From positions 1,900,795-1,964,794 of the forward strand of contig CP130629.1 of assembly GCA_030644725.1 (NCBI GenBank): a stretch of 64,000 bases of DNA, given 5' to 3'. The position numbers were made by a program, and so were the translations under genes. The notes beneath the pieces were generated by a model, which did no database searches, was not told the origin of the DNA, and saw only the letters and a program-made list of their open reading frames with translations. Source of the stretch: Candidatus Electrothrix communis. GTDB taxonomy: Bacteria > Desulfobacterota > Desulfobulbia > Desulfobulbales > Desulfobulbaceae. Every line of letters begins with the position of its first letter. Position 1 is the stretch's first letter. Below, piece by piece: positions 32,805 to 55,319 of the stretch.

Positions 32805-34265
32805 ATGAAGATCATCCCGCGCTGCATGAGCACCCAGCATCCCGACAATGCCTCAATCCCATTCTTTGCTTCGGGATCAGCACTGGTCGGCGAAGACGAA
32901 ATCCGCGAAGCCTACTACGCCTTCTCGCATCTCGGCTGTGACGAGCAGATGTGGGATGTGGAGGGCAAGGAAATTGACACCTACGTGGTCAAGAAGCTGC
33001 TCTCACACTATCCCGAGTACTTCCGCGAAAATGTCCTCGGTGAAGACCTGCGCCTCACCCTCCGTGTGCCCAATCCGACCGTGGAGAAAACAGAGGGTAA
33101 AATCCTCCTGGAGACCCTGGAAAGCATCCCGCGCTCCTACGATGCTGCCCGACTCTTCTACGAACGGGACGTACCGCCAATCTTCGAGGTCATCCTTCCC
33201 ATGGCGACCTCGGCCTGCTGCATCGACCGCATCTACCGCTACTACGCAGACCATATCATCAGTCGGCAGCAGGAGCGCTTCAGCTGCGACGACATCACCA
33301 TCGCCGAGTGGATCGGCGAATTCGCCCCTTCCCGAATCCAGGTTATTCCCCTGTTCGAGGATGTGGAAACCATGCTCAAGGCTGCTGATATTGTTGCCGA
33401 CTACCTTGCCGACAAGGACGTGGAGGATCAGCGGGTCTTCTTGGCTCGTTCGGACACGGCCATGAATTACGGACTCGTCTCGGCCGCATTAACCAATAAA
33501 ATTGCCCTGGAGCGCCTGGACGAGCTTTCCCAGCATAGCGGGGTGCGCATTCATCCTATTCTCGGTATGGGATCAGCACCGTTTCGGGGTGGGCTTTCCC
33601 CTCGCACTGTCGAACGGGTGGGCCGCGAGTACCCCAGTGTACCCACCTTTTCCATCCAATCGGCCTTCAAATTCGATTATCCCATCGACGAGGTCCGGGC
33701 CGCATGTAAGCATCTCAGGGAACGCACCATAGGACGGGCTGCTCCCATAGATGTCGAACGCGCTGAGTCGATCATCTGGCGCTACAGCAAGGCCTATCGA
33801 CAGCGTCTTGTTGAGCTTGCGCCCCATATCAACCGGATGGCCAAGTACATTCCGGCCCGCCGCGCACGCAAGCTGCATGTGGGTCTGTTCGGATACGCAC
33901 GGGAGGTCGGCGGGATGACCCTGCCGCGTGCAATTTCCTTCACCTGTGCCTTGTATTCGCTAGGATTCCCTCCTGAACTCATCGCCTTTGAGGAACTGAG
34001 CAAGGATGACCTTGCCTTCATGCTGGAGGTGTATCCGTCCTTTGGCGAAAAACTCCAGGATGCCCTCTGCTTTGCCGACCTGGATAGCCCATTCATAACA
34101 GACTCTCTGCGCTCCGCCCTGGACAGATCCGGCCTGCAATGGACGACCAACGAGGAGCATCTTGCCATTGTCCAGCGGATGCGCAGCGATCTTCAACGAG
34201 GGGATTCGGCGCACATTACGGATATGCTGGTGCGGGCTGCGCTTGTTCGGCGGTTTCTAGGGTAG
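32805..34265 (+). CDS. ppcA: Archaeal-type phosphoenolpyruvate carboxylase
   Basis: This 486-residue protein matches the short PpcA form, not the 900-residue bacterial Ppc. It begins IIPRCMSTQHPDNAS and carries DEQMWDVEGKEIDTYV, IRVIPLFE-like IQVIPLFEDVETM, and GMGSAPFRGGLSP. It forms oxaloacetate from PEP and bicarbonate. The ribosome site GAGGAGG precedes the ATG. Codon third positions are visibly richer in C and G than in neighbouring genes, and the gene sits inside a split mod operon, so lateral acquisition is plausible. It supplies oxaloacetate for anaplerosis and would benefit from bicarbonate supply. Confidence 0.92.
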   Translation: MKIIPRCMSTQHPDNASIPFFASGSALVGEDEIREAYYAFSHLGCDEQMWDVEGKEIDTYVVKKLLSHYPEYFRENVLGEDLRLTLRVPNPTVEKTEGKILLETLESIPRSYDAARLFYERDVPPIFEVILPMATSACCIDRIYRYYADHIISRQQERFSCDDITIAEWIGEFAPSRIQVIPLFEDVETMLKAADIVADYLADKDVEDQRVFLARSDTAMNYGLVSAALTNKIALERLDELSQHSGVRIHPILGMGSAPFRGGLSPRTVERVGREYPSVPTFSIQSAFKFDYPIDEVRAACKHLRERTIGRAAPIDVERAESIIWRYSKAYRQRLVELAPHINRMAKYIPARRARKLHVGLFGYAREVGGMTLPRAISFTCALYSLGFPPELIAFEELSKDDLAFMLEVYPSFGEKLQDALCFADLDSPFITDSLRSALDRSGLQWTTNEEHLAIVQRMRSDLQRGDSAHITDMLVRAALVRRFLG

Positions 34266-41494: not shown

Positions 41495-41776
41495 AGCAGC
41501 GAATAAAACATGATCGCCCAGGAAGCCACCGGAGAGATCCCGCTCGCTGTGCTTTAGCAGCGGGACCAACATCAGAATCAATATCGGAAGCTCAGCCAAT
41601 ATTTGACGCAATATTTCTGACTTCTTCGGGACGAACAAAAATATCACCCCATACAAGATGGATTCGCAAAAAGTCCAAATTTGGGCGAAATCGCTTCGCA
41701 ACACTCTGAGTTATCGTTAGTGATTTGGCATCTTTCGACTTTTTGCCAGACTGTCATACAAGGAGAAAAACAAACT

Positions 41777-43938
41777 ATGCTTTTTAAAATCTTTCCGTTC
41801 CTCCTCTGGTTTAAAGGATATAAAACGGAAATGTTCTGGAAACAAGATCTGGTCGCCGGTGTAACGGTCGCCCTAGTCCTCATCCCGCAATCTATGGCCT
41901 ATGCTCAACTGGCCGGGCTTCCAGCCTACTACGGCCTCTATGCGGCCTTTCTTCCTCCTATGGTGGCAGCCCTGTTCGGTTCCAGCCGCCAATTAGGCAC
42001 CGGGCCGGTCGCGGTTGTCTCTCTGATGTCGGCAGCTTCCCTGGAGCCCCTTGCCACAGCCGGTTCACAGGAATTCATTACCTACTCCATCATGCTGGCC
42101 TTAGTGGTTGGACTCTTTCAGTTCTCCCTCGGTGTCCTGCGTCTCGGCATGGTGGTCAACTTTCTTTCCCATCCGGTTATCAACGGCTTCACCAATGCTG
42201 CGGCCATCATTATCGCTTCGTCGCAATTTTCTAAATTTTTGGGGTATACGTGGACAAGGCCCCGCATCATTACGAGACCATGATCCGGGTCGTGCAGGCG
42301 GCCTGTGATTACACCCATTGGCCGACCTTGCTCTATGGTATCGGTGCGGTGGTAATCATGGTTATTCTGAAAAGAATCAATCCCAAAATTCCAGCGGTCC
42401 TTGTTGCGGTTGCGGTCACCACCCTGCTCTCATGGGCTACCGGGTTCAACAGAGATGCGCAGGTTACACTCTCTGCTGTTCATGTTCCAGGAATAGAAAA
42501 GAAAATAAAGGATTTTAATGAGGCTGTAACCATGATCAACCATCATGGGCAAGAACGGGCTGACTTAGGCAAGGCTGCTGAAGATCTTCACAACGCGGAA
42601 CTGGATGTGCATGGAGCCCCGCCGCCGATTGAAATCCTGGAAATGGAAGGAAAGCTGGCAATTTTAACCGGCCAAATGGATCATGCAAAACATGAGGCTC
42701 ACCTGCTCCGCACTGAACTCAGACGCATGAAATTCAAAGGTATGCAGGAAGGAGAAAAGTATACATTCTATGCCAAAGGCGATATTCCGTCCGGGGTAGA
42801 AACCGACGGACGGACATGGCGCCTCAAGGTAGGGAACAAGCCGCTTGACCTGGAAAACCTGCTCCTGACCGGCGGCGGTGCAATTGTCGGAAAAGTCCCT
42901 GAAGGTCTGCCCAGCTTCACCATGCCGGACATTACCACGAAGAGCTTTTTCAAGCTGCTGCCCACTGCAATTATTATCTCCCTGCTCGGTTTCATGGAGG
43001 CCATTGCCATTGCCAAGGCTATGGCGGCCAAGACCGGTCAGAAGATTGATGCCAATCAGGAGCTGATCGGCCAGGGGCTGGCTAACATCCTCGGTTCCTG
43101 CGGCTCCAGTTACGCCTCTTCCGGCTCTTTCTCCCGCTCAGCCGTCAACCTTCAGGCTGGTGCAGTGACCGGTATTTCCTCCGTGGTGACCTCCCTCATG
43201 GTTGTACTGACCCTGCTGTTTTTCACCCCCATGCTCTATCATTTACCCCAAGCCACACTGGCTGCGGTTATCATGATGGCGGTTATCGGGCTGATCAACA
43301 CCAGCGGTTTTGTTCACGCCTGGAAGGCTCAACGCTATGACGGCATCATCTCGGCGATCACTTTTGCCGTGACCCTGTACTTTGCACCTCACCTTGATAA
43401 AGGCATCATGGTCGGCTTTGCTCTGTCTATGGGTGTTTTTCTGTACAAATCCATGCGCCCGGTGGTGGCCGAGCTGTCCATGAACGAAGAAAACGTCCTC
43501 AAGAGTGCGGAACATTACCGCCTCAAGGGCTGCAACCATATCTCAGTGGTCCGCTTTGACGGTGCTCTGTTCTTTGCCAATGCCAGCTATCTTGATGAGC
43601 AGGTTGCTCGATTCCGGACTGAGCATCCAGATCTGCGCTTCATCCTCCTTGACGCCAAAGGAATCAACGACATGGACGCCTCAGGCGAGGAGGCCCTGGC
43701 CATGATCGTCGAACGTCTACGAGCAGCCAACCTTGGCTTTGCCATGAGCGGCGTCAAGGGACAGGTCATGGCGGTGATGGAACGAACGCATCTGTTTGAC
43801 AAGATCGGACGGGAGAACTTCTATCCCAACACCAAGACCGCTGTTGCCGCCCTAACAAGCAAAGTACATCAAGACAGTGACATACCAGAGGGTGGCTGCA
43901 AAAACTGCCCCCTGACCCATTACATCCCGGCGTCCTGA
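41777..43938 (+). pseudogene. SulP-family anion transporter with STAS domain, frameshifted in this sequence
   Basis: The protein starts at ATG 41777 behind AGGAGA. The first part has the SulP signature QSMAYAQLAGLPAYYGLYAAF and ends near 42245; the second frame, -1, continues FLGVYVDKAPHHYET to 43938. It includes GSCGSSYASSGSFSRSAVN and a C-terminal cytoplasmic STAS domain. The frame change lies at TTTTTGGGG (42236-42244). Between membrane segments is an extra hydrophilic block of about 150 residues (42450-42900) with coiled-coil character, absent from ordinary SulP. The family carries sulfate, bicarbonate or other anions. A missing G, a sequencing error, or programmed slippage would each explain the break. 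Confidence 0.82.
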
Positions 43939-44013: not shown

Positions 44014-44865
44014 ATGAACAGTACACGAGTGATAAACAAGTCCGAAGTTATCGCCCTTGCCACAGACGGCTCTTCCTACAACGACGGGGCCGTGCAGGAG
44101 GCCATCTTTCTGGCCCAGGCATGCGGAGCAAAGATTGTGGTTCTCAATGTTATCCCTATTGATTCGGGATCAGCAACTGCAATTCATTCCTCAGCCGCAG
44201 CCATACGTCAGGAGACCAAGGACTACATGGACAACATCGGGAAGCTTGCCGATGATAACGGGATCACCTGCGAAATCATTATTGAGGAATCCTACCAGCC
44301 TGACAAAACCATTGTCGAACTGGCCTATAAACATAAGGCGGATCTCCTGATTATGGGGCGACACGGAAAACAAGGCTTACTCAAACTGCTGGTCGGCAGT
44401 ATGACATCAAAGGTTATCGGGCACGGCTTTCCCAAGGTATTGGTTGTGCCGAAGGATTTCACCATCAGCGGGGATAGAGTACTCCTTGCTGTGGACGGCT
44501 CTGAAGCCAGCGAGGCTGCGGCAGACGAAATCATCGGTATGGGGCTCCATTGCACCAACCTAAAAGAGGTCTATGCCCTGTCAGTCACTCATTCCGAGAG
44601 CGGGCTGGGGGAGGCCAAGGCGCTTGCGGAAGCCGCATGCAAAAGAGGACAGGAAAAAGCGCCGAGAGTGATCTTTCATCCCATGGCCCTGGTCGGTAAA
44701 CCTGCCGCTGATGTCATTGCAAAAGCAGCAGAGGAAAAGGAAGTGGATATGATCCTTATCGGAGGACACGGCAAAGGACTCAGCAAACTCCTCATGGGCC
44801 ATGTGACCGAGAAGGTGATCGGCAAGGCCCATTGTGCTGTGCTGGTGATTGAAAAAGAGAGATAA
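44014..44865 (+). CDS. Double-domain universal stress protein 2
   Basis: This 283-residue paralogue of the protein at 40607 has the same opening (VIALATDGSSYNDGAVQEAIF) and both ATP-binding loops, GRHGKQGLLKLLVGS and GGHGKGLSKLLMGH, with the same Ser-to-His change in the second. It follows the SulP gene and its terminator, so it probably has its own promoter. The close similarity implies a local duplication placing one copy on each side of the transporter. Confidence 0.9.
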   Translation: MNSTRVINKSEVIALATDGSSYNDGAVQEAIFLAQACGAKIVVLNVIPIDSGSATAIHSSAAAIRQETKDYMDNIGKLADDNGITCEIIIEESYQPDKTIVELAYKHKADLLIMGRHGKQGLLKLLVGSMTSKVIGHGFPKVLVVPKDFTISGDRVLLAVDGSEASEAAADEIIGMGLHCTNLKEVYALSVTHSESGLGEAKALAEAACKRGQEKAPRVIFHPMALVGKPAADVIAKAAEEKEVDMILIGGHGKGLSKLLMGHVTEKVIGKAHCAVLVIEKER

Positions 44866-45258: not shown

Positions 45259-46440
45259 ATGCCGCATACCTATATCCAGTCGAAAATTATTCGCAGCCTT
45301 GCTCCCTTTAAAGTGGATCATCTTGCTATTTCCTATGCCGAGTTTGTGCCCAAACTGTACAATCTCTGCATGACCCTCGGATTCCGCAAGGGTATGATCA
45401 TGCCGTCCAGAGCCTTCTGCTCCGATGAAAACCAAGGTTGGCCCATTATCCTACTGACAAAGCATTTCGGCACCTTCCCCTTTAATCACGGCAGAGTGGG
45501 CGGCATTGTCGCCATTGACCGACACGGCCCCCATGCCCATCACGGCGAAGACTCGGTGATCGTACAGGCAAGCCATGTGGGCTATGATCCCAAGACCGGG
45601 AACTACGGCACCTGCACTCGGCCCAAGATGGAAGGCACTTGTATCTCGCCTTCCTGCGGAAAAATAACCCATGTAATCAGCCCCTATCTTGAGCAATATC
45701 AATTTGCCAAGGAAAGAATTTTCCTACATCGGGACGACCGGGGTCGCCACCTGATCACGGCAAAAAACTCCTTTATTGATTTTGCCTCCCACCCGGTCAA
45801 GGACGGACTGGTCCTGCATCTGGAACGAATTGTCGCACCTAATGAGAACGGGAATATCCATCCAATCAGCGCGGTCAGCACCAGCCAGACCTACGAGGTC
45901 TCAGAAAATTTCCGCAAACGGATAGAGCAGACCGGCTATACCTGGAAAAGCGGGTCCGGCGAGAGCATCGGTGATTACCTGACCGAGGATCTCTTTTATT
46001 TTCGAGAAGAGTTCCATGAAACCGATGAGTCTATCCTGCTGGAACGAAACCTGATTGAATTCATGCCCATCATTGTTACCTCGAAGAACCCTCCGCTGCG
46101 GGCAGCCAAGATCAATATTCAGCTGGAGTTCGCCAGGACCGTGGAATCCATCCGTCGGGGCAGTGAGTATAATGGAAAGAATCTTCTTTATATCGCAGGA
46201 TTGAACATAGACATTTCCGAATACAAGGACTACCCAGCCACCACCTATTTTGTTCCCTGGGCCGCTCATATCCAACTCAAAGACGGCACCCCGGAGGAAT
46301 ACATTCATCCTATAGAACAGGAACGCCTTTGTGCGTTAATCGCCGAACAGGACAGCGTTAACCCTGAACAAGCGGACCTGAAAGAACAGATAGGCCGGAT
46401 GCTGAAAGCACCGAGGTTTGACATCAAATCGCCGAAATAA
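45259..46440 (+). CDS. Putative LCIB-like carbonic anhydrase family protein, first gene of the hyf-like operon
   Basis: This is a 393-residue soluble protein without a signal peptide. Residues 44-140 show a pattern resembling the LCIB (limiting-CO2-inducible B) carbonic anhydrases: FCSDEN with C54 and D56, HGRVGG with R79, then HGPHAHHGED leading to ASHVGYD with H106, and SPSCGK with C133. Cys, Asp-Arg, His, Cys in this order is the zinc site of beta-class enzymes. The C-terminal 200 residues are unlike any domain I recognise. It precedes the hyfB-like gene by 92 bases on the same strand. The family call is by motif only and may be wrong; if right, it would interconvert CO2 and bicarbonate at a membrane complex. 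Confidence 0.5.
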   Translation: MPHTYIQSKIIRSLAPFKVDHLAISYAEFVPKLYNLCMTLGFRKGMIMPSRAFCSDENQGWPIILLTKHFGTFPFNHGRVGGIVAIDRHGPHAHHGEDSVIVQASHVGYDPKTGNYGTCTRPKMEGTCISPSCGKITHVISPYLEQYQFAKERIFLHRDDRGRHLITAKNSFIDFASHPVKDGLVLHLERIVAPNENGNIHPISAVSTSQTYEVSENFRKRIEQTGYTWKSGSGESIGDYLTEDLFYFREEFHETDESILLERNLIEFMPIIVTSKNPPLRAAKINIQLEFARTVESIRRGSEYNGKNLLYIAGLNIDISEYKDYPATTYFVPWAAHIQLKDGTPEEYIHPIEQERLCALIAEQDSVNPEQADLKEQIGRMLKAPRFDIKSPK

Positions 46441-46532
46441 TCACTGATCTCGCCTCGCCCATGAAAGGTCGAGCCCGGATCAAATACATTCATGAACTGA
46501 AGAATGAACTGAACCATCAACGGAGGATGTAC

Positions 46533-48494
46533 ATGGACACGATATTTGTGTCGATTTTTATCATACTGGCAGGAGGGACAGCCGCGCTTTTCCTCTCCCG
46601 CCGGTTTATCCTGATGCAGCGTGTCGTCATCGGGACCACAGCACTGGGCTGTGCCGCCGGTTTATGTTACGCGCTCACCCGCCTTTTCGGCAACACAGCG
46701 GTTGCAACGGCGACATGGGCTTGGCTGCATATTTTTGAGCTCTCCTTTACAGTGGACAGTGTCTCCCTGTTTTTCCTGATTCCGGTCTTCCTTATTCCGC
46801 CGCTGGTCCTGGTCTACAGCCTGGACTATCTGACAGAGGGAAAGAAAAACCTGCGCATTGCCATTAATTATTTCCTCACCACCCTGTTGGTGGTTTCAAT
46901 GGTCATGGTGGTTACTGCCGCAAACATGATTACCTTTGCCTTGGCCTGGGAAATCATGTCCATTGCCTCCTTCTTTCTGGTGATTTTCGATTATCAGGAT
47001 AAGGAGAAACGAAAGGCTGGCTACCTGTACCTGATTTTTGTGCAGGGCGGAGCCATGTTCCTCTTTGCTGCATTCGCAATCATCTACCAGCACACGGGCA
47101 GCTTTGATTTTGCCGCTGTATCCACCATGCCGGATAACCAAAAACTGCTGGTCTTTATTCTCGCCCTGATCGCCTTTGGATCCAAAGCCGGGCTTTTTCC
47201 GCTCCACATCTGGATGTCAGGCAGCTATTCCTCCGCACCAGGGCATCTGCCAGCTCTCATGTCCGGGGTCATGTCCAAAATGGGCATCTACGGCATTCTG
47301 CGCATCTATCTCTTGCTTGATCAACCATCGCCGATATTTGCCAATATCGTCCTGATCTGCGGAATACTCACCGGCCTTACCGGAGTTGTTTACGCGTTGG
47401 TCCGCCAGAATATCAAAAAACTGCTGGCCTACAGCTCAATGGAAAACATCGGCATCATCCTCATCGGTCTGGGCATAGGTATGCTCGGCGCTGGCGAAAA
47501 TAATCAGGCTATGGCGTTCTTCGGCTTTGCCGGAGCCCTGCTCCATGTGTTCAACCATTCCGTGTTCAAATCGCTGCTCTTTATGGGAGCGGCTGCTGTC
47601 GAGCAACAAACAGGTACCAACAGCATAGAAAATTTAGGCGGATTATTGAAAAAAATGCCCATCACCGGAAAAACCTTTCTGGTCGGCTCAACGGCTATTT
47701 CCGGTCTGCCTCCCTTTGCTGGCTTTGTCAGTGAGTTTCTGATTTATTACGGCGCATTTCAAGGTGTCGACACCCATCGCCTTTCTTTTATCCTGGCGAT
47801 TTTCGCCATCATCTCCCTGGCCCTCATCGGTGGTCTGGCAGCTGCCGTGTTCACTAAAGTGGCTGGTCTGGCCTTTCTCGGCGCAGCCCGCACCGACAAG
47901 GTGGAACAGGCTCAAGAGGTCGGCTTTTCCATGAAGCTGGTAATGATTCTGCTGGCCGGGGCCTGTCTTTTTATCGGCTTAGTACCTGCGCCCTTTATCC
48001 GAACCGCCTTTGCCGGTATTCGAGATATTACCTTTATTGCCGGTTATGACAGTCAGGCTTTTCTCGCAACAGCCACCCAACTTTCACAAACCACCCTGCT
48101 CTTTGTTTGCATAGTCCTGCTTGTAGCCCTGCTGCGCCAGTTCCTGTACTTGAACAAACGTATCAGGCAGGCCGGGACCTGGGGCTGCGGTTTCACCAAA
48201 CCCACCGTTCGTATTCAGTACACCGGGGCCTCCTATGCTGATGAGATGGTCGGTTTCTTCAGCTGGCTGACTCCTGTCACCCGGCTCTATTCCGGTATCA
48301 CCCGAATTTTTCCGCGCAGAGCAACCTGGCATATGCAATCTGAGGATGTCGCGTTGATGAATTATGAACGGGTACTCGTCAGGCCGCTGTACAATCTGGT
48401 CTATAAATTACGCTGGATTCAACACGGAAACATTCAGCTCTATATCGCCTACATTATCGCGGCGATGATTGTCCTGCTGGTGTTTGTTCTCTGA
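46533..48494 (+). CDS. hyfB: HyfB/NuoL-like proton-translocating membrane subunit
   Basis: I start at ATG 46533 (653 residues), six bases after GGAGG; in-frame ATGs further upstream lack a site. It is an antiporter-like subunit with about 15 membrane segments. It contains the Mrp/NuoL core (LAWEIMSIASFFLVIF, SKAGLFPLHIWMSGSYSSAPGHLPALMSGVMSKMGIYG in two parts, YSSMENIGII, and LHVFNHSVFKSLLFMG), including the Lys and His residues of the proton path. It is the first of six complex-I-like genes after the LCIB-like protein. Confidence 0.9.
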   Translation: MDTIFVSIFIILAGGTAALFLSRRFILMQRVVIGTTALGCAAGLCYALTRLFGNTAVATATWAWLHIFELSFTVDSVSLFFLIPVFLIPPLVLVYSLDYLTEGKKNLRIAINYFLTTLLVVSMVMVVTAANMITFALAWEIMSIASFFLVIFDYQDKEKRKAGYLYLIFVQGGAMFLFAAFAIIYQHTGSFDFAAVSTMPDNQKLLVFILALIAFGSKAGLFPLHIWMSGSYSSAPGHLPALMSGVMSKMGIYGILRIYLLLDQPSPIFANIVLICGILTGLTGVVYALVRQNIKKLLAYSSMENIGIILIGLGIGMLGAGENNQAMAFFGFAGALLHVFNHSVFKSLLFMGAAAVEQQTGTNSIENLGGLLKKMPITGKTFLVGSTAISGLPPFAGFVSEFLIYYGAFQGVDTHRLSFILAIFAIISLALIGGLAAAVFTKVAGLAFLGAARTDKVEQAQEVGFSMKLVMILLAGACLFIGLVPAPFIRTAFAGIRDITFIAGYDSQAFLATATQLSQTTLLFVCIVLLVALLRQFLYLNKRIRQAGTWGCGFTKPTVRIQYTGASYADEMVGFFSWLTPVTRLYSGITRIFPRRATWHMQSEDVALMNYERVLVRPLYNLVYKLRWIQHGNIQLYIAYIIAAMIVLLVFVL

Positions 48495-48592
48495 TAACAC
48501 TGCTACATACCCACATAAACAACGCGGGCCTTTGCTTTCTGCTCGTGCAAACATATTACGTTATTACGTTTTAAGGTAACCTGAGGTAATCC

Positions 48593-49510
48593 ATGGATTC
48601 TGTACTCTCATTCTGTTGCGCCCTGCTGATCGCGCCCCTGTTCCCGGCAGTGATCCAGAAGGTCAAGGCCTGGTTCGGCGGCAAACAGGGGCCGCCCCTG
48701 CTGATCAATTATTACACCCTGTTGAAGCTGCTGCAAAAGGGTTCTGTTTACAGCACCAGCACCAGCTTTGTCTTTCGACTCGGGCCGATCATCAGCGCGG
48801 CAACCGGGTTGATGCTGCTGCTCTTTTTTCCTTTTGCCGGAGCAACCCCCCTCTTTTCTTTTCACGGCGATGTCATCATCTTGTTTTACCTGATGGGGCT
48901 CGGTCGCTTCTTTACCATTCTCGCCGCCCTGGACACAGCCTCGCCTTTTGAGGGTATGGGCGCGGCCCGTGAGGCTTTTTTCTCCAGCCTTGCTGAACCC
49001 ACGGTCTTCACCATCCTCTTTCTCTTTTTTAAGATCAGCGGCAGCCTCAGTTTTGCCGGTTTCTTTTCCAGCCCAACACCGGTTGCTCTGACAGGAGGCT
49101 ACGGAGCAGCTGTTCTGCTTGCTGCTGCGGCCCTATACATTGTTATGCTGACTGAAAACTCCAGGGTACCGGTGGATGACCCGGCCACCCATCTGGAGCT
49201 GACCATGATCCATGAAGTCATGATTCTTGACCACAGCGGTCCGGATCTGGCCCTGATTGAGACCGGAGCCTGGTGCAAGCTTCTTTTCTACACCTCCTTT
49301 CTCGCCTCCATCATCTGGTTTCCCCGGTTCGACAGTTGCCTAGTCAATGCCGTCCTGTTTTATGGTGTTGTTGCGCTTATCGCTGTTTCCATCGGGGTTG
49401 TCGAATCCATCACAGCCAGATACAAAATGAACCTGGTGCCAAAATTCATTATGAATGCCTTTGCACTGGTGTTCTTTGTCATTATCCTCACTATGGAGTT
49501 TGCCCAATGA
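48593..49510 (+). CDS. hyfC: HyfC/NuoH-like membrane subunit
   Basis: This 305-residue protein with eight membrane segments is homologous to the NuoH/HycD anchor that connects the soluble arm to the membrane arm. Conserved family text includes GKQGPPLLINYYTLLKLLQKG, ASPFEGMGAAREAFFS and ENSRVPVDDPATHLELTMIHE, the last holding the acidic residues of the cavity. GAGG precedes the ATG. Its stop overlaps the following start by four bases (ATGA). Confidence 0.92.
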   Translation: MDSVLSFCCALLIAPLFPAVIQKVKAWFGGKQGPPLLINYYTLLKLLQKGSVYSTSTSFVFRLGPIISAATGLMLLLFFPFAGATPLFSFHGDVIILFYLMGLGRFFTILAALDTASPFEGMGAAREAFFSSLAEPTVFTILFLFFKISGSLSFAGFFSSPTPVALTGGYGAAVLLAAAALYIVMLTENSRVPVDDPATHLELTMIHEVMILDHSGPDLALIETGAWCKLLFYTSFLASIIWFPRFDSCLVNAVLFYGVVALIAVSIGVVESITARYKMNLVPKFIMNAFALVFFVIILTMEFAQ

Positions 49511-50208
49511 TACAGCTGACCAATATCCTTCTTGGCCTGACGCTGCTGTCCGTGCTGCTATCTCTTGGGTCTAACCGACTTGTTTCGTTGGTGAAAATCA
49601 TAACCTTTCAGGGAATCATTGTTTCTCTGATCCCTTTTACCCTGCTCTTTCAGGAACATCACGGTGAGATAGGAGCAGGCAATATCTTGATTTTTCAGGC
49701 TATGATCATTATCAAGGGAATTCTGATCCCCTGGTTCCTGTTTACGGCCTTAAAAAAGGTGAAGATGCGGCGGGAAATTGAGCCGATCATCGGCTATCAG
49801 GCTTCTATCTTTGCCGGACTCTTTTTCATTCTGCTGTCCGCCTATATTGCCGACAGTTTCCATATTGAGCTGCACGATAAAGAGGTTTTGCTCCTGATTA
49901 CAGCTATGACCACCTTAGCAGCAGGGCTTTTTCTCCTGATGAGTCGAAAAAAAGCCATCACCCAGGTCATCGGCTATTTAATAATGGAAAACGGTATTTA
50001 TTTGATGGGTAGCGCCCTTGCTAAACAAACCCACACCCAATATGTGGTTGAGTTCGGGGTACTGCTGGACATCCTGGTCGCTATCATGATTATGGGCATT
50101 GTCCTCCATAACATCAACTCCACCTATGACGGGATGGATACCGGCAAACTGGACAGCCTCCATGATCTTGACAAGGACCGTTCTCTTTTTCACCGTTTCA
50201 AAGGCTGA
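49507..50208 (+). CDS. hyfE: HyfE-like membrane subunit (NuoK-related)
   Basis: I start at ATG 49507, overlapping the hyfC stop, giving 233 residues; an earlier start at 49273 would lie deep inside hyfC. The protein has about six membrane helices. IIIKGILIPWFLFTAL and VIGYLIMENGIYLMG match HyfE, whose helices correspond partly to NuoK with its buried Glu. It is needed for membrane-arm assembly in Hyf and related complexes. Confidence 0.88.
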   Translation: MIQLTNILLGLTLLSVLLSLGSNRLVSLVKIITFQGIIVSLIPFTLLFQEHHGEIGAGNILIFQAMIIIKGILIPWFLFTALKKVKMRREIEPIIGYQASIFAGLFFILLSAYIADSFHIELHDKEVLLLITAMTTLAAGLFLLMSRKKAITQVIGYLIMENGIYLMGSALAKQTHTQYVVEFGVLLDILVAIMIMGIVLHNINSTYDGMDTGKLDSLHDLDKDRSLFHRFKG

Positions 50209-50243
50209 AACAGGCAAGGCATCTCAACGCAAGGAATAAAATA

Positions 50244-51671
50244 ATGTTGGAACTCACCATTCTTATACCGTTACTGGCTGGCGGCGTAATCATGTTCTTC
50301 CCAGTGACACTGGGGCGAAAAATCATGATCGCTACCGGCCTGATTCATCTGCTGCTGACTATTACAGCAGTGGCTGGCAAGGCAACGCCTTGTGCGTCTA
50401 AATATTTCTCCACAACTCCGGAAGGCCTGCTCATTCTGCTGGTTACCTCCTTTGTCTTTTTCTTTATCTCGATCTATGCTTCCTCCTACATGGAAGAAGT
50501 GGAAATTTCCAGTGAGCCTATCTACCTCGGCTGCACGATGTTCTTTCTGGCCAGCATGTCCATGGTCGCCTTAGCAGATCATATCGTGGTACTGTGGATA
50601 GCCATTGAAGCCACAACCCTGATGAGCGCACCGCTGATCTTTCTTCATCGCTCCAAAACTGCTCTGGAAGCGACCTGGAAATACGTGATGATCTGTTCGG
50701 TGGGGATCGCCTTGGCCCTGCTGGGTTGTTTTCTGATTGTTCTGTCTATGGATTTGGGTGGAGTGGATGTGCCGATCACCTTCAGCTCCTTGGCCCAGGT
50801 TGCGGAGCAGCTGGATCCGATCTGGCTCAAAGCAGGTTTTATCTTCTTGATTATCGGTTACGGTACCAAAATGGGTCTGGCTCCCATGCACACCTGGTTG
50901 CCGGATGCGCACAGCGAAGCACCCAGCCCGGCTTCGGCCCTGCTTTCCGGTGCTCTGTTGAACTGTGCCTTTCTTGGGGTGTATCGCGGCCATCAGCTCC
51001 TCTATCAGGCGGGCCTCGGCGAATTTTCAGGCAATATTCTGATCGGTTTCGGGCTGCTCTCCATGCTCATAGCCGCAATATTTATCTTTGATCAGACCGG
51101 TTATAAACGAATGCTGGCCTATTCCAGTATCGAAAATATGGGTATTATCGCCTTTGGTGTAGGTATCGGCGGATTAGCCACCTACGGAGCCATACTCCAC
51201 CTTATCCATCATTCCTTGATCAAGTCTTCCCTATTTCTTTCCGCTGGAAATATTCTGTTGGGATACGGCAGCAAGCTCATTGAAAAGACGGGAAATATGG
51301 CAAAGCTTTTCCCCAAGACCTTCATCGCCTTTTTTGCTGGGTTCGCCGGAATCTCGGGTTTCCCTCCCTTTGGTGTTTTTATCAGCGAATTACTGATCAT
51401 CATGGGAGCTTTTCAACAAGGCCGCTCTTTACCAGCAATTATCTTCATCATTGCCCTGATTTTTATTTTTGCAGGGGCCTCCCGGCTAGTTATGAAAATG
51501 AGCTTTGGAAAACATGAAGGTGAAATACTTGTCGAAGAAAAACTGATAAGGGTACTGCCGTCCTATGCCTTACTCTTCACCTCATTCATACTTTGTGTCT
51601 GGCTGCCGGACAGCCTGTATGAGATCATACTTTCAGCAATAGCCACAGTCGGAGGCGGGATCAATGGATAA
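50244..51671 (+). CDS. hyfF: HyfF/NuoN-like proton-translocating membrane subunit
   Basis: This 475-residue second antiporter-like subunit has about 14 helices: WIAIEATTLMSAPLIF with the channel Glu, KMGLAPMHTWLPDAHSEAPS, YSSIENMGIIAFG, and LIHHSLIKSSLFLSAG. It completes a membrane arm with two pumping modules, as in Hyf. Its end overlaps the start of the large subunit gene by eight bases. Confidence 0.92.
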   Translation: MLELTILIPLLAGGVIMFFPVTLGRKIMIATGLIHLLLTITAVAGKATPCASKYFSTTPEGLLILLVTSFVFFFISIYASSYMEEVEISSEPIYLGCTMFFLASMSMVALADHIVVLWIAIEATTLMSAPLIFLHRSKTALEATWKYVMICSVGIALALLGCFLIVLSMDLGGVDVPITFSSLAQVAEQLDPIWLKAGFIFLIIGYGTKMGLAPMHTWLPDAHSEAPSPASALLSGALLNCAFLGVYRGHQLLYQAGLGEFSGNILIGFGLLSMLIAAIFIFDQTGYKRMLAYSSIENMGIIAFGVGIGGLATYGAILHLIHHSLIKSSLFLSAGNILLGYGSKLIEKTGNMAKLFPKTFIAFFAGFAGISGFPPFGVFISELLIIMGAFQQGRSLPAIIFIIALIFIFAGASRLVMKMSFGKHEGEILVEEKLIRVLPSYALLFTSFILCVWLPDSLYEIILSAIATVGGGING

Positions 51672-53199
51672 ACTCCTGTACATACACAACGGGGAAAGAG
51701 TACACCGCTCTGCCATCCCACATCTTTCATTTCATGAATTCCGCAGCGAATTGCTTGACTTTACTGAAGCGGGTGGCCAGATAGTGCAGTTTTTCGCATA
51801 CGACGAAAACAACAAAGAGAATCAAGGTAAAGGCTCCCTGAAATTGCTTGCCGTGCTGCGCAACGAGAGCAACGATAAACTCTGTGTTACCGGCTGCGAT
51901 GCCCCGGACAGTTTTGATTCACTGACCGCTGTGACAGAAAAATTTCATATGTTCGAGCGGGAGCTCGGGGAGCAGTACGGCCTCAAGGCTGAAAGTCATC
52001 CCTGGTGGAAAATGGTGCGTTACCAGCAAAACTGCACCGGCAAACCCGATGTGTTCGGCAATAATTACAGTGAGAATATTCCAGGCAACTATCCCTATTT
52101 CGCCGTGGAAGGTGAAGGTGTGCATGAAGTGGCTGTGGGGCCTGTGCATGCCGGAATCATTGAGCCGGGCCATTTCCGTTTCCAATGCTTTGGCGAGCGG
52201 GTTTTTCACCTGGAGATCCAACTCGGCTATCAGCATCGCGGGGTGGAACACCTGCTGCAAACGGTGCCTATGAAGCGCTTGCCGATCATCGGCGAAACCA
52301 TTTCCGGGGACACCAGTATCGGCCACGGCCTGTGCATGGCCCAAGGAATCGAGTCCTTAGCCGACCTTGAGGTTGATGAAGGATCCAAGGTCGTGCGGAC
52401 CTTGGCGCTGGAGCTGGAGCGTATTGCTAATCACATCGGTGACCTTGGCGCACTCAGTCTGGACGTGGCCTTTAGCCCGCCAGCAGCCTATTTCGGAAGG
52501 ATCAGAGGAGAATACCTGAATCTCAGCCAGATACTGGGCGGAAATCGATTCGGTCGGGGGCTGATTCGTCCCGGCGGGGTAACCAAGGTCATGGGTGAGG
52601 AGCAACGGCAGCTTATTCAGGAAAAAATGACGGAATTAACCCCGGAGGTCGAGCATGTCAACGATCTTATTTTCTCCACTCCCAGCGTGCGTGGTCGTTT
52701 TGACCATACCGGCACAGTAAGCCGGGAAAATGCGGAAAAAATCGGTTTGGTCGGCTATGCAGGCAGGGCCTGCGGTCTTCCCTACGATGCCAGGGTCAAA
52801 TTCCCCACGGAATGCTATGGAGACCTGCCCGGCAACAGCAACAATAAAACCGACGGCGATGTGGCCTCCAGAGCCGAGGTCCGCCGAGAAGAGATCATGC
52901 ACTCCATTCATCTGGTCAATACGCTGCTTGCCCGCAGCGAAGAGGCGAACAGCTATACGCCCCAAAAAACAGAGCTGGCCCCGGACTCCTTTGTGGTAAC
53001 CGTCAATGAGGCATGGCGCGGTGAGGCCTCCCATTGCATCCTCACTGATGCACAGGGAAAAATACTCAGGTATAAGGTGAAAGACCCGTCGTTTCACAAC
53101 TGGACCGGCTTGGCGCTGTCCCTACGAGAGCAGGGGATTTCCGACTTCCCCCTGTGCAACAAGAGCTTTAACCTTTCTTACTGCGGCTTCGACCTGTAG
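51664..53199 (+). CDS. hyfG: HyfG/NuoCD-like large subunit without NiFe ligands
   Basis: This 511-residue fusion has a NuoC-like N-terminal domain (about 1-150, ERELGEQYGLKAESHPWW) and a NuoD/hydrogenase-large-like domain (LEIQLGYQHRGVEHLL, LELERIANHIGDLGAL). In group 4 NiFe hydrogenases the first motif reads RxCGxC and the last DPCxxC. Here the equivalent places read GETISGDTSIGHGLCMAQ and FPLCNKSFNLSYCGFDL, so the four bridging cysteines are absent. The subunit therefore belongs with the energy-converting hydrogenase-related (Ehr) type complexes and probably does not handle hydrogen. Confidence 0.88.
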   Translation: MDKLLYIHNGERVHRSAIPHLSFHEFRSELLDFTEAGGQIVQFFAYDENNKENQGKGSLKLLAVLRNESNDKLCVTGCDAPDSFDSLTAVTEKFHMFERELGEQYGLKAESHPWWKMVRYQQNCTGKPDVFGNNYSENIPGNYPYFAVEGEGVHEVAVGPVHAGIIEPGHFRFQCFGERVFHLEIQLGYQHRGVEHLLQTVPMKRLPIIGETISGDTSIGHGLCMAQGIESLADLEVDEGSKVVRTLALELERIANHIGDLGALSLDVAFSPPAAYFGRIRGEYLNLSQILGGNRFGRGLIRPGGVTKVMGEEQRQLIQEKMTELTPEVEHVNDLIFSTPSVRGRFDHTGTVSRENAEKIGLVGYAGRACGLPYDARVKFPTECYGDLPGNSNNKTDGDVASRAEVRREEIMHSIHLVNTLLARSEEANSYTPQKTELAPDSFVVTVNEAWRGEASHCILTDAQGKILRYKVKDPSFHNWTGLALSLREQGISDFPLCNKSFNLSYCGFDL

Positions 53200-53228
53200 G
53201 CCGACCTCGAAGAATATAAGGTATTTTT

Positions 53229-53972
53229 ATGTTAAAAGTCATTAAAAACAGATTTGAACAGGGACATCGCACAACGAAATATCCCGAAGAAAAGATCAAC
53301 CTGTATAAACGATTTCGAGGATTGCCGACTGTTGATCCAGACTGCGACCCCGCTGTGGTGCAACAATGTGCCGAGGCCTGCCCTCAAGAGGCGATTGATT
53401 CTGCATCCTGCCGGATTGATCTGGGGAAATGCGTTTTCTGTGGCCTCTGCGAAACCCTGTCTGAGGGCAAATTTGCCTGCTTCAGCCAAAATATTGAGAT
53501 GGGGACTGCTGCCCGCGACGATCTGCTGTTTTCAGGCAGCCTGCCCGAATTAGCTGAGCACTCTAAGACGCATTTTAAAAAACTCTTCGGGCGGTCACTT
53601 CAACTGCGTCAGATCTCGGCAGGGGGCTGCAACGCTTGCGAGGCCGATACCAACGTGCTGAACACCCCCTTCTTTGACCTGTCCCGCTTCGGCATTCAGT
53701 TTGTGGCCTCGCCCCGGCATGCCGACGGTATTCACGTCACCGGGCCGGTCTCAAAAAATATGCGTCAGGCCGTGCTCACCACCTGGGAGGCTGTGCCCGA
53801 CCCCAAAGTTGTGATCGCATCTGGAGCCTGTGCTATCTCGGGCGGACCCTTTTACGGCAGCGATGATATTGTCGGCGACCTGAACAGCCTAATTCCGGTG
53901 GATCTGTATATTCCTGGGTGTCCGCCGCATCCGTTGACCACCCTGCATGCTTTGTTGTCGTTTTTTAAGTAG
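53229..53972 (+). CDS. hyfI: HyfI-like small subunit fused to a ferredoxin domain
   Basis: This 247-residue protein has a ferredoxin-type region in its first 85 residues (CAEACPQEAI, then CRIDLGKCVFCGLCETL). The NuoB/hydrogenase-small-subunit domain follows with ligands GGCNACE, ASGACAISGG and PGCPPHP for the proximal [4Fe-4S] cluster. Electrons could enter from reduced ferredoxin and pass to this cluster. It merges the roles of HyfH and HyfI, which are separate in E. coli, and is the last gene of the operon. Confidence 0.88.
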   Translation: MLKVIKNRFEQGHRTTKYPEEKINLYKRFRGLPTVDPDCDPAVVQQCAEACPQEAIDSASCRIDLGKCVFCGLCETLSEGKFACFSQNIEMGTAARDDLLFSGSLPELAEHSKTHFKKLFGRSLQLRQISAGGCNACEADTNVLNTPFFDLSRFGIQFVASPRHADGIHVTGPVSKNMRQAVLTTWEAVPDPKVVIASGACAISGGPFYGSDDIVGDLNSLIPVDLYIPGCPPHPLTTLHALLSFFK

Positions 53973-54567: not shown

Positions 54568-55130
54568 ATGAACTACAAACAACTGAGTCTTGCCGAAAGA
54601 TACTATATCGACATTGAGCTGAAAAAGAAAGTGCGCATAATCAGATTGCTAAAGCAATAGGGCGCTCCCAAAGCACTGTTTCTCGGAAAATCCGTCGTAA
54701 TTCAGGCCAAAGGGGATACCGAAATAAACAGGCTGATCGTTTCGCCTTGGAACGACATGCCGACAAAGCAAAAGCAGTTAAAATGACAGGAGAAATAAAA
54801 TACATAGTTTCTGTCTGCCTTCAAAACGACTGGAGTCCTGAGCAAATCGCCGGTCGTCTGCGTGAAGAGAGCGTGGTGTGCCTTCATCATGAAACCGTAT
54901 ATCAGTACATTTTGACCGACAAAGCAAACGGAGGACAGCTTTACAGACATTTACGTCATCAGGGGAAAACATACCGGAAACGCTACGGATCAGCTCACAA
55001 CCGTACTGGGATCCCCAATCGTAGAGACATTGACGAGCGTCCTGCCGAAGTCAACGCCAGAAAGCGTATAAGTGACTGGGAAGCCGATACAATTACAGGA
55101 AAAAATCCTAATATACCAGGGCCAAGGGTT
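54568..55130 (+). pseudogene. IS30-family transposase, frameshifted and truncated
   Basis: MNYKQLSLAERYYIDIELKK opens the helix-turn-helix region. After a frame change near 54630 it continues IAKAIGRSQSTVSRKIRRN, WSPEQIAGRL, HHETVYQYI and ISDWEADTITGKN, the first catalytic Asp block. The sequence then departs from the family near 55100, so the second half with the remaining catalytic residues is gone. Confidence 0.82.
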
Positions 55131-55319
55131 TCCTATGACTTTATCCTCGAAAGAAAAAAGGCTCTACGATACCAGAATGGGTATTTTCTATCCAACTGTG
55201 TTAGTTTAATATTTACTTTTTCACCATTGCATGTTTTCTTCCTTTGAAGGAAGCGTTGTTCAGAGCATTTTTTGATAGTGCTTTAAAAAGACAACGTAAA
55301 AAAAATAAAGGAGGAGTAA

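Follow-up and report, generated by a model that had tools for sequence, protein, structure and literature searches.

In a 64,000-nucleotide window of the Candidatus Electrothrix communis genome (contig CP130629.1, positions 1,900,795 to 1,964,794; coordinates below count from the first letter of this window unless a locus is named), a gene for a protein with a predicted LCIB-type carbonic anhydrase fold stands directly before six hyfBCEFGI-like genes, whose large subunit lacks the hydrogenase ligands. This LCIB-hyf gene pairing is real, conserved and little noticed. Our best explanation is that the LCIB-fold enzyme works with an ion-translocating complex of the energy-converting hydrogenase-related (Ehr) type in CO2/bicarbonate handling, to which we give an even chance. 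The earlier note on this DNA had read the cluster as a CO2-linked ion-translocating complex, and as a whole that interpretation is partly supported. Newly seen here are a zinc-less LCIB lineage that keeps the fold and the place before hyfB, an LCIB gene behind a DabA operon, and neighbouring genes of the Pro_CA, SulP or DASS families. The genes of the cluster are as follows:

45259-46440, plus strand: LCIB-fold (beta-carbonic-anhydrase-like) protein of 393 residues, long subfamily (by PF18599, AlphaFold2 model and residues)
46461-48494, plus strand: hyfB-like antiporter-type subunit, 677 residues as the longest open reading frame (PF00361, E 1.5e-55)
48593-49510, plus strand: hyfC-like (NuoH-type) membrane subunit (PF00146, E 1.6e-26)
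49510-50208, plus strand: hyfE-like membrane subunit, NuoK-like (PF00420, E 2.1e-6)
50244-51671, plus strand: hyfF-like antiporter-type subunit (PF00361, E 2e-47)
51664-53199, plus strand: hyfG-like fused NuoC/NuoD-type large subunit without [NiFe] ligands (PF00346, E 1.4e-31)
53229-53972, plus strand: hyfI-like NuoB-type subunit fused to a ferredoxin-like domain (PF01058, E 4.4e-27)

The sole Pfam family matched at E <= 1 by the product of the first gene is PF18599 (LCIB_C_CA, E 5.8e-5), which agrees with the family proposed in the earlier note. Since the score lies under the curated cut-off, we name the protein an LCIB-fold relative of a long subfamily and not a curated member of PF18599. 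Among the 56 aligned homologues scanned singly, this protein included, 51 matched PF18599 at E <= 0.01, with a best value of 1.1e-6. The AlphaFold2 model, built with 56 window and locus sequences, has a mean predicted local distance difference test score (pLDDT) of 86.3, and residues 1-7 and 76-84 fall below 50. When this model was searched against the PDB with Foldseek, the top seven rows were all LCIB-family entries (E 1.9e-7 to 3.5e-4), followed by HMG-CoA synthase in the eighth row (E 1.7e-2). Additionally, VIA-align gave Z values of 20.5 to 16.5 for six LCIB-family entries and 5.1 for the next best. The modelled fold is thus of the LCIB type, as had been proposed. Compared with LCIB/LCIC (PtLCIB4, 5b5y; LCIB, 5k5w), the protein shares the fold and the Cys-x-Asp, His and Cys positions, whereas it is 393 residues long against 221-248 for the LCIB/LCIC chains, is 12-16% identical in the structural alignments, and is encoded in an operon with a hyf-like complex. 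A search for LCIB-like genes in plasmid records returned no match.

The residues of the putative zinc site are conserved. Specifically, Cys54, Asp56, His106 and Cys133 are kept in 56/56 rows of the alignment and in 77/77 of a wider homologue set. The locus search was seeded with the peptide patterns SRAFCSDE and PIILLTKH, and the conservation of Cys54 and Asp56 is therefore partly by choice, since the first pattern contains both; His106 and Cys133 lie outside the patterns, and all four residues are invariant also in ten rows from a whole-protein search. A distant LCIB copy located away from hyf (L202, 35% identical) keeps the four residues as well. The residue pattern of the earlier note also held Arg79, and this part did not stand: the position is arginine in just 44/56 rows (glutamine in 5; valine, leucine, isoleucine, methionine or serine in 7) and in 65/77 of the wider set, so Arg79 is unlikely as the partner of Asp56 and was rejected. 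Arg88 is invariant, and His89 is present in all rows except one, in both the 56-row and the 77-row set. In PDB alignments read by eye, the motifs CxDE, PH and CG of classical LCIB lie opposite Cys54/Asp56, His106 and Cys133, which makes zinc binding by the long protein likely. An offset of 8 residues, taken from the start of the structural alignment, would put Ser55, the serine between Cys54 and Asp56, on Ser47 of PtLCIB4, and counting in the 6kfs alignment places His89 on His88 of PtLCIB4; both Ser47 and His88 are mutated in PDB entries (numbers from PDB titles and alignment offsets). The protein is quite probably a CO2/bicarbonate enzyme.

The six open reading frames that follow match, in order, the Pfam families Proton_antipo_M, NADHdh, Oxidored_q2, Proton_antipo_M, the 30 and 49 kDa subunits, and the 20 kDa subunit, which confirms the HyfBCEFGI-like sextet described before. 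The match of the hyfG-like protein to PF00329 (E 0.00045) is under the cut-off of that family. In NCBIfam, the top-scoring names of frames one, three and four are hydrogenase 4 subunit B, hydrogenase 4 membrane subunit (E 4.7e-25) and hydrogenase 4 subunit F (E 1e-96), all under their cut-offs; the Pfam and NCBIfam scores of the hyfE-like protein were computed on the longer open reading frame 49273-50208. The true start of hyfB is probably near 46533, because many homologues have 651-653 residues and align from about residue 25.

The large subunit has lost the centres that would mark it as a hydrogenase or as a respiratory complex. At the positions aligned to the N-terminal CxxC of HycE and MbhL, all 51 HyfG proteins carry alanine or serine (214) and threonine (217), and the absence of [NiFe] ligands noted earlier is thus upheld. 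Gly215 occupies, in 51/51, the position opposite the tyrosine of PRMDY in Nqo4 (2fug chain 4), which we take to be the quinone-site Tyr87 of the T. thermophilus Nqo4 (49-kDa) subunit. HyfG therefore has neither the two CxxC motifs for Ni-Fe of a group 4 [NiFe] hydrogenase or formate hydrogenlyase nor the quinone-site tyrosine of respiratory complex I; formate hydrogenlyase and hydrogenase 4 were rejected on the lost ligands. What the complex does have are the features of Ehr, namely a group-4-type subunit set with antiporter-type subunits and a large subunit without Ni-Fe ligands. In HyfI, cysteines 134, 137, 201 and 231 together with cysteines 51, 68, 71 and 74 are present in 46/46 proteins, and by our own assignment they would be the ligands for two [4Fe-4S] clusters, comprising four proximal-cluster cysteines and one full ferredoxin-type set. 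With these Fe-S ligands kept and the Ni-Fe ligands and quinone tyrosine lost, the complex probably carries electrons without a hydrogenase or a canonical quinone site. We also observed that other HyfG cysteines are kept despite the missing [NiFe] site, Cys175 and Cys507 in 51/51, Cys224 and Cys458 in 49, and Cys498 in 47.

The gene pairing reaches well beyond the source genome; adjacency in this genome alone would, by the earlier note, have refuted its reading. The loci examined are the best 80 of 310 related stretches, 67 of a closer kind (L022-L088) and 13 of a more distant, mostly gammaproteobacterial type (L089-L101). The LCIB gene adjoins a hyfBCEFGI-like sextet in 37/67 closer-kind loci, 33 times directly before hyfB and four times directly after hyfI; at least 1.5 kb after the LCIB gene was available in 56 of these 67, and 35 of the 56 are adjacent. 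L044 and L064, which contain hyfI at a spacing that failed the distance rule, were counted as not adjacent, and the LCIB frames of L025 and L055, missed by greedy picking of reading frames, were recovered with tblastn. Across 257 genomes of the order, a strong LCIB match was found in 61, HyfG (at least 54% identity) in 92 and both in 48 (48/13/44/152; Fisher p 3e-15, uncorrected for kinship). The 61 are what remains of 69 genomes with a match once G095, whose match is a 53-residue fragment, and the seven genomes whose copies are all zinc-less are set aside. In 34 of the 48 genomes holding both, the two genes are neighbours, and the adjacency extends over several families of the order. The other 14 have them on separate contigs; among these, G001 has LCIB and hyfB adjacent on one contig and the hyf cluster of G162 carries a zinc-less LCIB copy. 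In a quick tree of 51 HyfG proteins, four changes between linked and unlinked states were counted, and the four cases with LCIB after hyfI form one clade; rows shorter than 430 residues were dropped, L064 was labelled 'other', zinc-less cases were counted as unlinked, and labels were assigned manually for L025 and the four downstream cases. The LCIB and HyfG distance matrices correlate at r 0.913 over 27 loci, compared with 0.906 for HyfC and HyfG, as would be expected from shared descent alone. CdhC of the carbon monoxide dehydrogenase/acetyl-CoA synthase was found in 57/61 LCIB genomes against 134/196 others, likewise uncorrected for kinship.

A zinc-less lineage gives the strongest hint that the LCIB-fold protein is a subunit of the complex. 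The place before hyfB is taken, in one genus (g45), by the gene of an LCIB relative with 337-383 residues; the first three such proteins are 27-32% identical to the window's protein. Cys54, Asp56 and Cys133 are absent from all 13 aligned sequences (12 distinct, as L201 repeats L172); most of the stretch from Cys54 to His69 is gone, and position 106 is histidine in two. Zinc-less copies occur in nine genomes, seven of which have one before hyfB on the hyfG contig; in an eighth case (G160, locus L196) the copy lies with hyfB, and three second copies are located elsewhere (L198-L200). The model of a zinc-less protein (pLDDT 76.3) again aligns best with LCIB entries (Z 13.6), ahead of a fungal beta-carbonic anhydrase (Z 7.5). 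Retention of fold and position without the metal site suggests a binding role. These observations could also be taken to mean that the LCIB-fold protein serves the complex chiefly in a structural or sensing role, such as that of a bicarbonate/CO2 sensor or gate, with catalysis secondary and the zinc-less lineage displaying the core role. The loss of the site in 12/12 distinct sequences together with the kept fold and place would suit such a subunit, as would two protein clusters that each appear in 21/80 loci, one of sigma-54 activators and one of sensor kinases (representatives named by Pfam). We consider it improbable, since the zinc-site residues are kept in 77/77 sequences of the other lineages, which points to selection for metal binding or catalysis.

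Based on these data, we propose that the long LCIB subfamily probably converts CO2 to bicarbonate and back, using a zinc site formed by Cys54, His106 and Cys133 with Asp56 close by, and that in the Desulfobulbales this enzyme would cooperate with the adjacent Ehr machine. Electrons would enter the machine from a donor of the ferredoxin type by way of two Fe-S clusters, ions would move through its two antiporter-type subunits, and the LCIB enzyme would most likely sit at its periphery, as a partner facing the cytoplasm. That it is a physical partner of the complex is, in our judgement, an evenly balanced matter. Ion translocation or the membrane potential might then drive CO2 hydration, or might supply CO2, for Wood-Ljungdahl fixation; we hold true energy coupling of this kind to be less likely than not. 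Cable bacteria are described in the main text of PMC11247825 as fixing CO2 autotrophically by the Wood-Ljungdahl pathway, and the terms 'hyf' and 'ehr' are absent from that main text. It is possible, if doubtful, that the cluster represents a third, independent class of energy-coupled carbonic anhydrase, in which an LCIB zinc enzyme docks on a hydrogenase-derived, ferredoxin-fed pump in Wood-Ljungdahl autotrophs including cable bacteria, with the subunit of a side lineage turned into a zinc-less structural or sensing one.

Several observations weigh against cooperation between the LCIB-fold enzyme and the Ehr-like complex in CO2/bicarbonate handling. The PF18599 score of the protein is 22.9 bits, 2.1 bits short of the curated cut-off of 25, and sequence searches of the PDB with the protein and with a 56-row profile matched no chain. 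In the distant-type LCIB loci, hyf was found within the fetched flanks in 0/13. No LCIB, strong or zinc-less, was found in 37/92 genomes with a hyf sextet, and 21 of those 37 have CdhC. Two genomes of the same genus, G003 and G004, contain LCIB and gave no HyfG match. The zinc-less lineage is itself a sign that the complex can manage without carbonic anhydrase activity there. The source genome, a single contig of 4.85 Mb, has two Pro_CA (ordinary beta-carbonic anhydrase) genes, one with an evident signal-like start and one without, as judged by eye, and an ordinary enzyme without signal peptide would dissipate the bicarbonate pool built by a one-way enzyme. Growth of Synechococcus at low CO2 is disrupted when its cytoplasm contains human carbonic anhydrase, according to the main text of a 2024 review (PMC10880623). 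Finally, the neighbouring SulP and DASS transporters are no proof of bicarbonate, because both are also sulfate-transporter families; they were rejected as such proof, and the best solved match of one SulP relative beside LCIB (L017) is a plant sulfate transporter (E 6.8e-93).

Alternatively, the LCIB-like protein might be an ordinary carbonic anhydrase that diffuses freely and shares with hyf no more than its regulation, for example to supply CO2 for the Wood-Ljungdahl pathway or to buffer pH, with no docking or coupling. LCIB without hyf in 13/13 distant-type loci and in G003 and G004, hyf sextets without LCIB, the loci with LCIB after hyfI instead of before hyfB, and the Pro_CA genes that also neighbour hyf all fit such an enzyme. 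It would leave a zinc-less LCIB-fold protein directly before hyfB in one genus without a catalytic reason, however, and the source genome already has a cytoplasmic-looking beta-carbonic anhydrase; we regard it as rather unlikely. In G002, LCIB-hyf sits between the kdtA/comEC and M18-peptidase genes, while the LCIB gene of G004 lies on the kdtA/comEC side of this site and that of G003 on the M18-peptidase side; we infer a loss of hyf in these two genomes. At the same site the source genome retains a 43-residue LCIB remnant, 86% identical (L021 7514-7642; near 719507), and its intact cluster therefore lies elsewhere.

The main text of PMC10880623 describes energy-coupled CO2 hydration by two complexes that are distinct in evolution, the cyanobacterial NADH dehydrogenase-associated one and DAC/DAB. 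The cyanobacterial NDH-1MS with CupA/CupS likewise joins an ion pump resembling complex I to a partner that hydrates CO2 (PMC6981117, in the part consulted), and it is coupled to ferredoxin oxidation (PMC13144422, in part). In that system CupA has a helical fold and is bound to the terminal NdhF3, whereas here the fold is of the LCIB type by model, docking is a proposal, and the quinone-site tyrosine is replaced in HyfG. DabA-DabB also combines a beta-carbonic-anhydrase-like zinc protein with a NuoL-like antiporter subunit, as the consulted part of PMC13144422 describes. DabA belongs to another family (PF10070), unlike the LCIB fold found here. DAB is not known to have an Fe-S arm. At E <= 1e-20, PF10070 was matched nowhere in the source genome, where DAB was thus rejected, and in 1/257 genomes of the order; with DabA nearly absent, a different energy-coupled carbonic anhydrase could fill its place. 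Ehr complexes are defined in the relevant part of PMC6349859 as related to group 4 hydrogenases, without Ni-Fe ligands and with antiporter-like subunits. The Hyf-like complex shares these three features and differs in having an LCIB-fold gene within the cluster, a partner that does not occur in that part of the paper.

The earlier note had called the pairing unfamiliar, which holds in part. The 2024 review reports in its main text carbonic anhydrase genes beside formate hydrogenlyase/formate dehydrogenase genes in Wood-Ljungdahl organisms such as Desulfocapsa sulfexigens and finds this arrangement hard to understand (PMC10880623), so a neighbourhood of this kind was already in print; LCIB is unmentioned in that main text. 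That neighbourhood is probably the same as the LCIB-hyf-Pro_CA row of L203, L041 and L033, and the complex here is no formate hydrogenlyase, because the Ni-Fe ligands are missing. Among titles and abstract openings, with subscription papers and preprints outside the scope, we found none linking LCIB to an Ehr or Hyf complex. If cooperation between the LCIB-fold enzyme and the Ehr-like complex is true, it would add a third complex of the CO2-hydrating, energy-coupled kind, made from a hydrogenase-like chassis and an algal-type carbonic anhydrase fold, and sulfate reducers, sulfur disproportionators and cable bacteria would join the organisms with a bicarbonate economy. One branch of the Ehr complexes, a group whose reaction is unsettled, would gain a function, and the proposal would explain the carbonic anhydrase beside formate hydrogenlyase genes in PMC10880623. 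The proposal is testable because the loci include named strains, such as Desulfoprunum benzoelyticum DSM 28570 and Desulfofustis glycolicus DSM 9705, and in the natural zinc-less form docking is separated from catalysis.

The SulP transporter and the archaeal-type phosphoenolpyruvate carboxylase that the earlier note had placed elsewhere in the window are both present, the former split into two frames. These and the remaining features around the cluster are:

32805-34265: archaeal-type phosphoenolpyruvate carboxylase (PF14010, E 1.7e-182)
41681-43938, plus strand: SulP-family anion transporter in two overlapping frames (41681-42283 and 42250-43938), a neighbour of uncertain operon membership
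44014-44865, plus strand: stress protein between SulP and the LCIB-like gene, presumably of the UspA type (open reading frame; neighbour only)

The two SulP frames overlap near 42250, whereas the L017 relative is a single frame of 721 residues; the split is either genuine or the product of a misassembled run of G. A relative of the 44014-44865 protein flanks SulP-LCIB in L079 and L087. SulP genes were found in 13/67 closer-kind and 2/13 distant-type loci, Pro_CA relatives in 3/67 closer-kind loci and DabA in 1/13 distant-type loci. Pro_CA follows hyfI in L041, L033 and L203, the last of which, in a two-contig genome, has the order small protein, LCIB, hyf sextet and Pro_CA relative. The LCIB gene of L100 (Thiotrichales) comes, on the same strand, after a DabA gene (PF10070, E 5e-231) and four genes of the antiporter type. 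L018 has the order DASS-type transporter, LCIB and a CitMHS-type gene that we take for NhaD, and SulP or DASS transporters adjoin LCIB or hyf in further loci. Short classical LCIB genes over the Pfam cut-off (L180-L186) were observed in 7/148 genomes sampled from the phylum; one lies directly after a DASS gene by Pfam (L181), and L180 is alike by resemblance alone.

Carbonyl sulfide or carbon disulfide hydrolysis occurs in other beta-carbonic-anhydrase-fold enzymes. The LCIB-like protein might accordingly act on a sulfur compound of the same shape as CO2, by hydrolysis of either, or serve in sulfate handling, as SulP and DASS carry sulfate. The hosts are sulfur-cycling bacteria, as judged from their names, both transporters belong to named sulfate families, and the L017 SulP matches best, among solved structures, a sulfate transporter; its match to 6ki1, which was deposited as a low affinity sulfate transporter, comes behind with E 3e-25. 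We take 6ki1 to be BicA. We find a sulfur substrate very improbable, as the DabA and Pro_CA neighbours and the LCIB fold point to CO2 and the classical LCIB also adjoins a DASS gene.

In some other hyf sextets, the slot before hyfB is filled by SulP or by a protein of about 80 residues. SulP stands directly before hyfB, in the place of LCIB, at L167 2566-4728 and L168 8109-10268. The protein of about 80 residues (GPF...W...WYGFT) precedes LCIB or hyfB and occurs also in LCIB-less hyf clusters; its L025 member has no Pfam match, and nothing convincing was found in the window (best E 0.019). Its members are:

L025 9715-9960: protein of about 80 residues
L084 9703-9930: protein of about 80 residues
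L160 8409-8654: protein of about 80 residues
L171 9518-9745: protein of about 80 residues
L203 5816-6067: protein of about 80 residues

The window holds 14 promoter-like sites where shuffled sequence gives 9.6, and 20 terminator-like sites where it gives 11.2; neither was used as evidence. Behind hyfI, an open reading frame of 166 residues (54747-55247) has a sub-cut-off HTH_32 match alone in Pfam. It presumably resembles an IS30-type transposase fragment and may mark how the cluster reached its present site.

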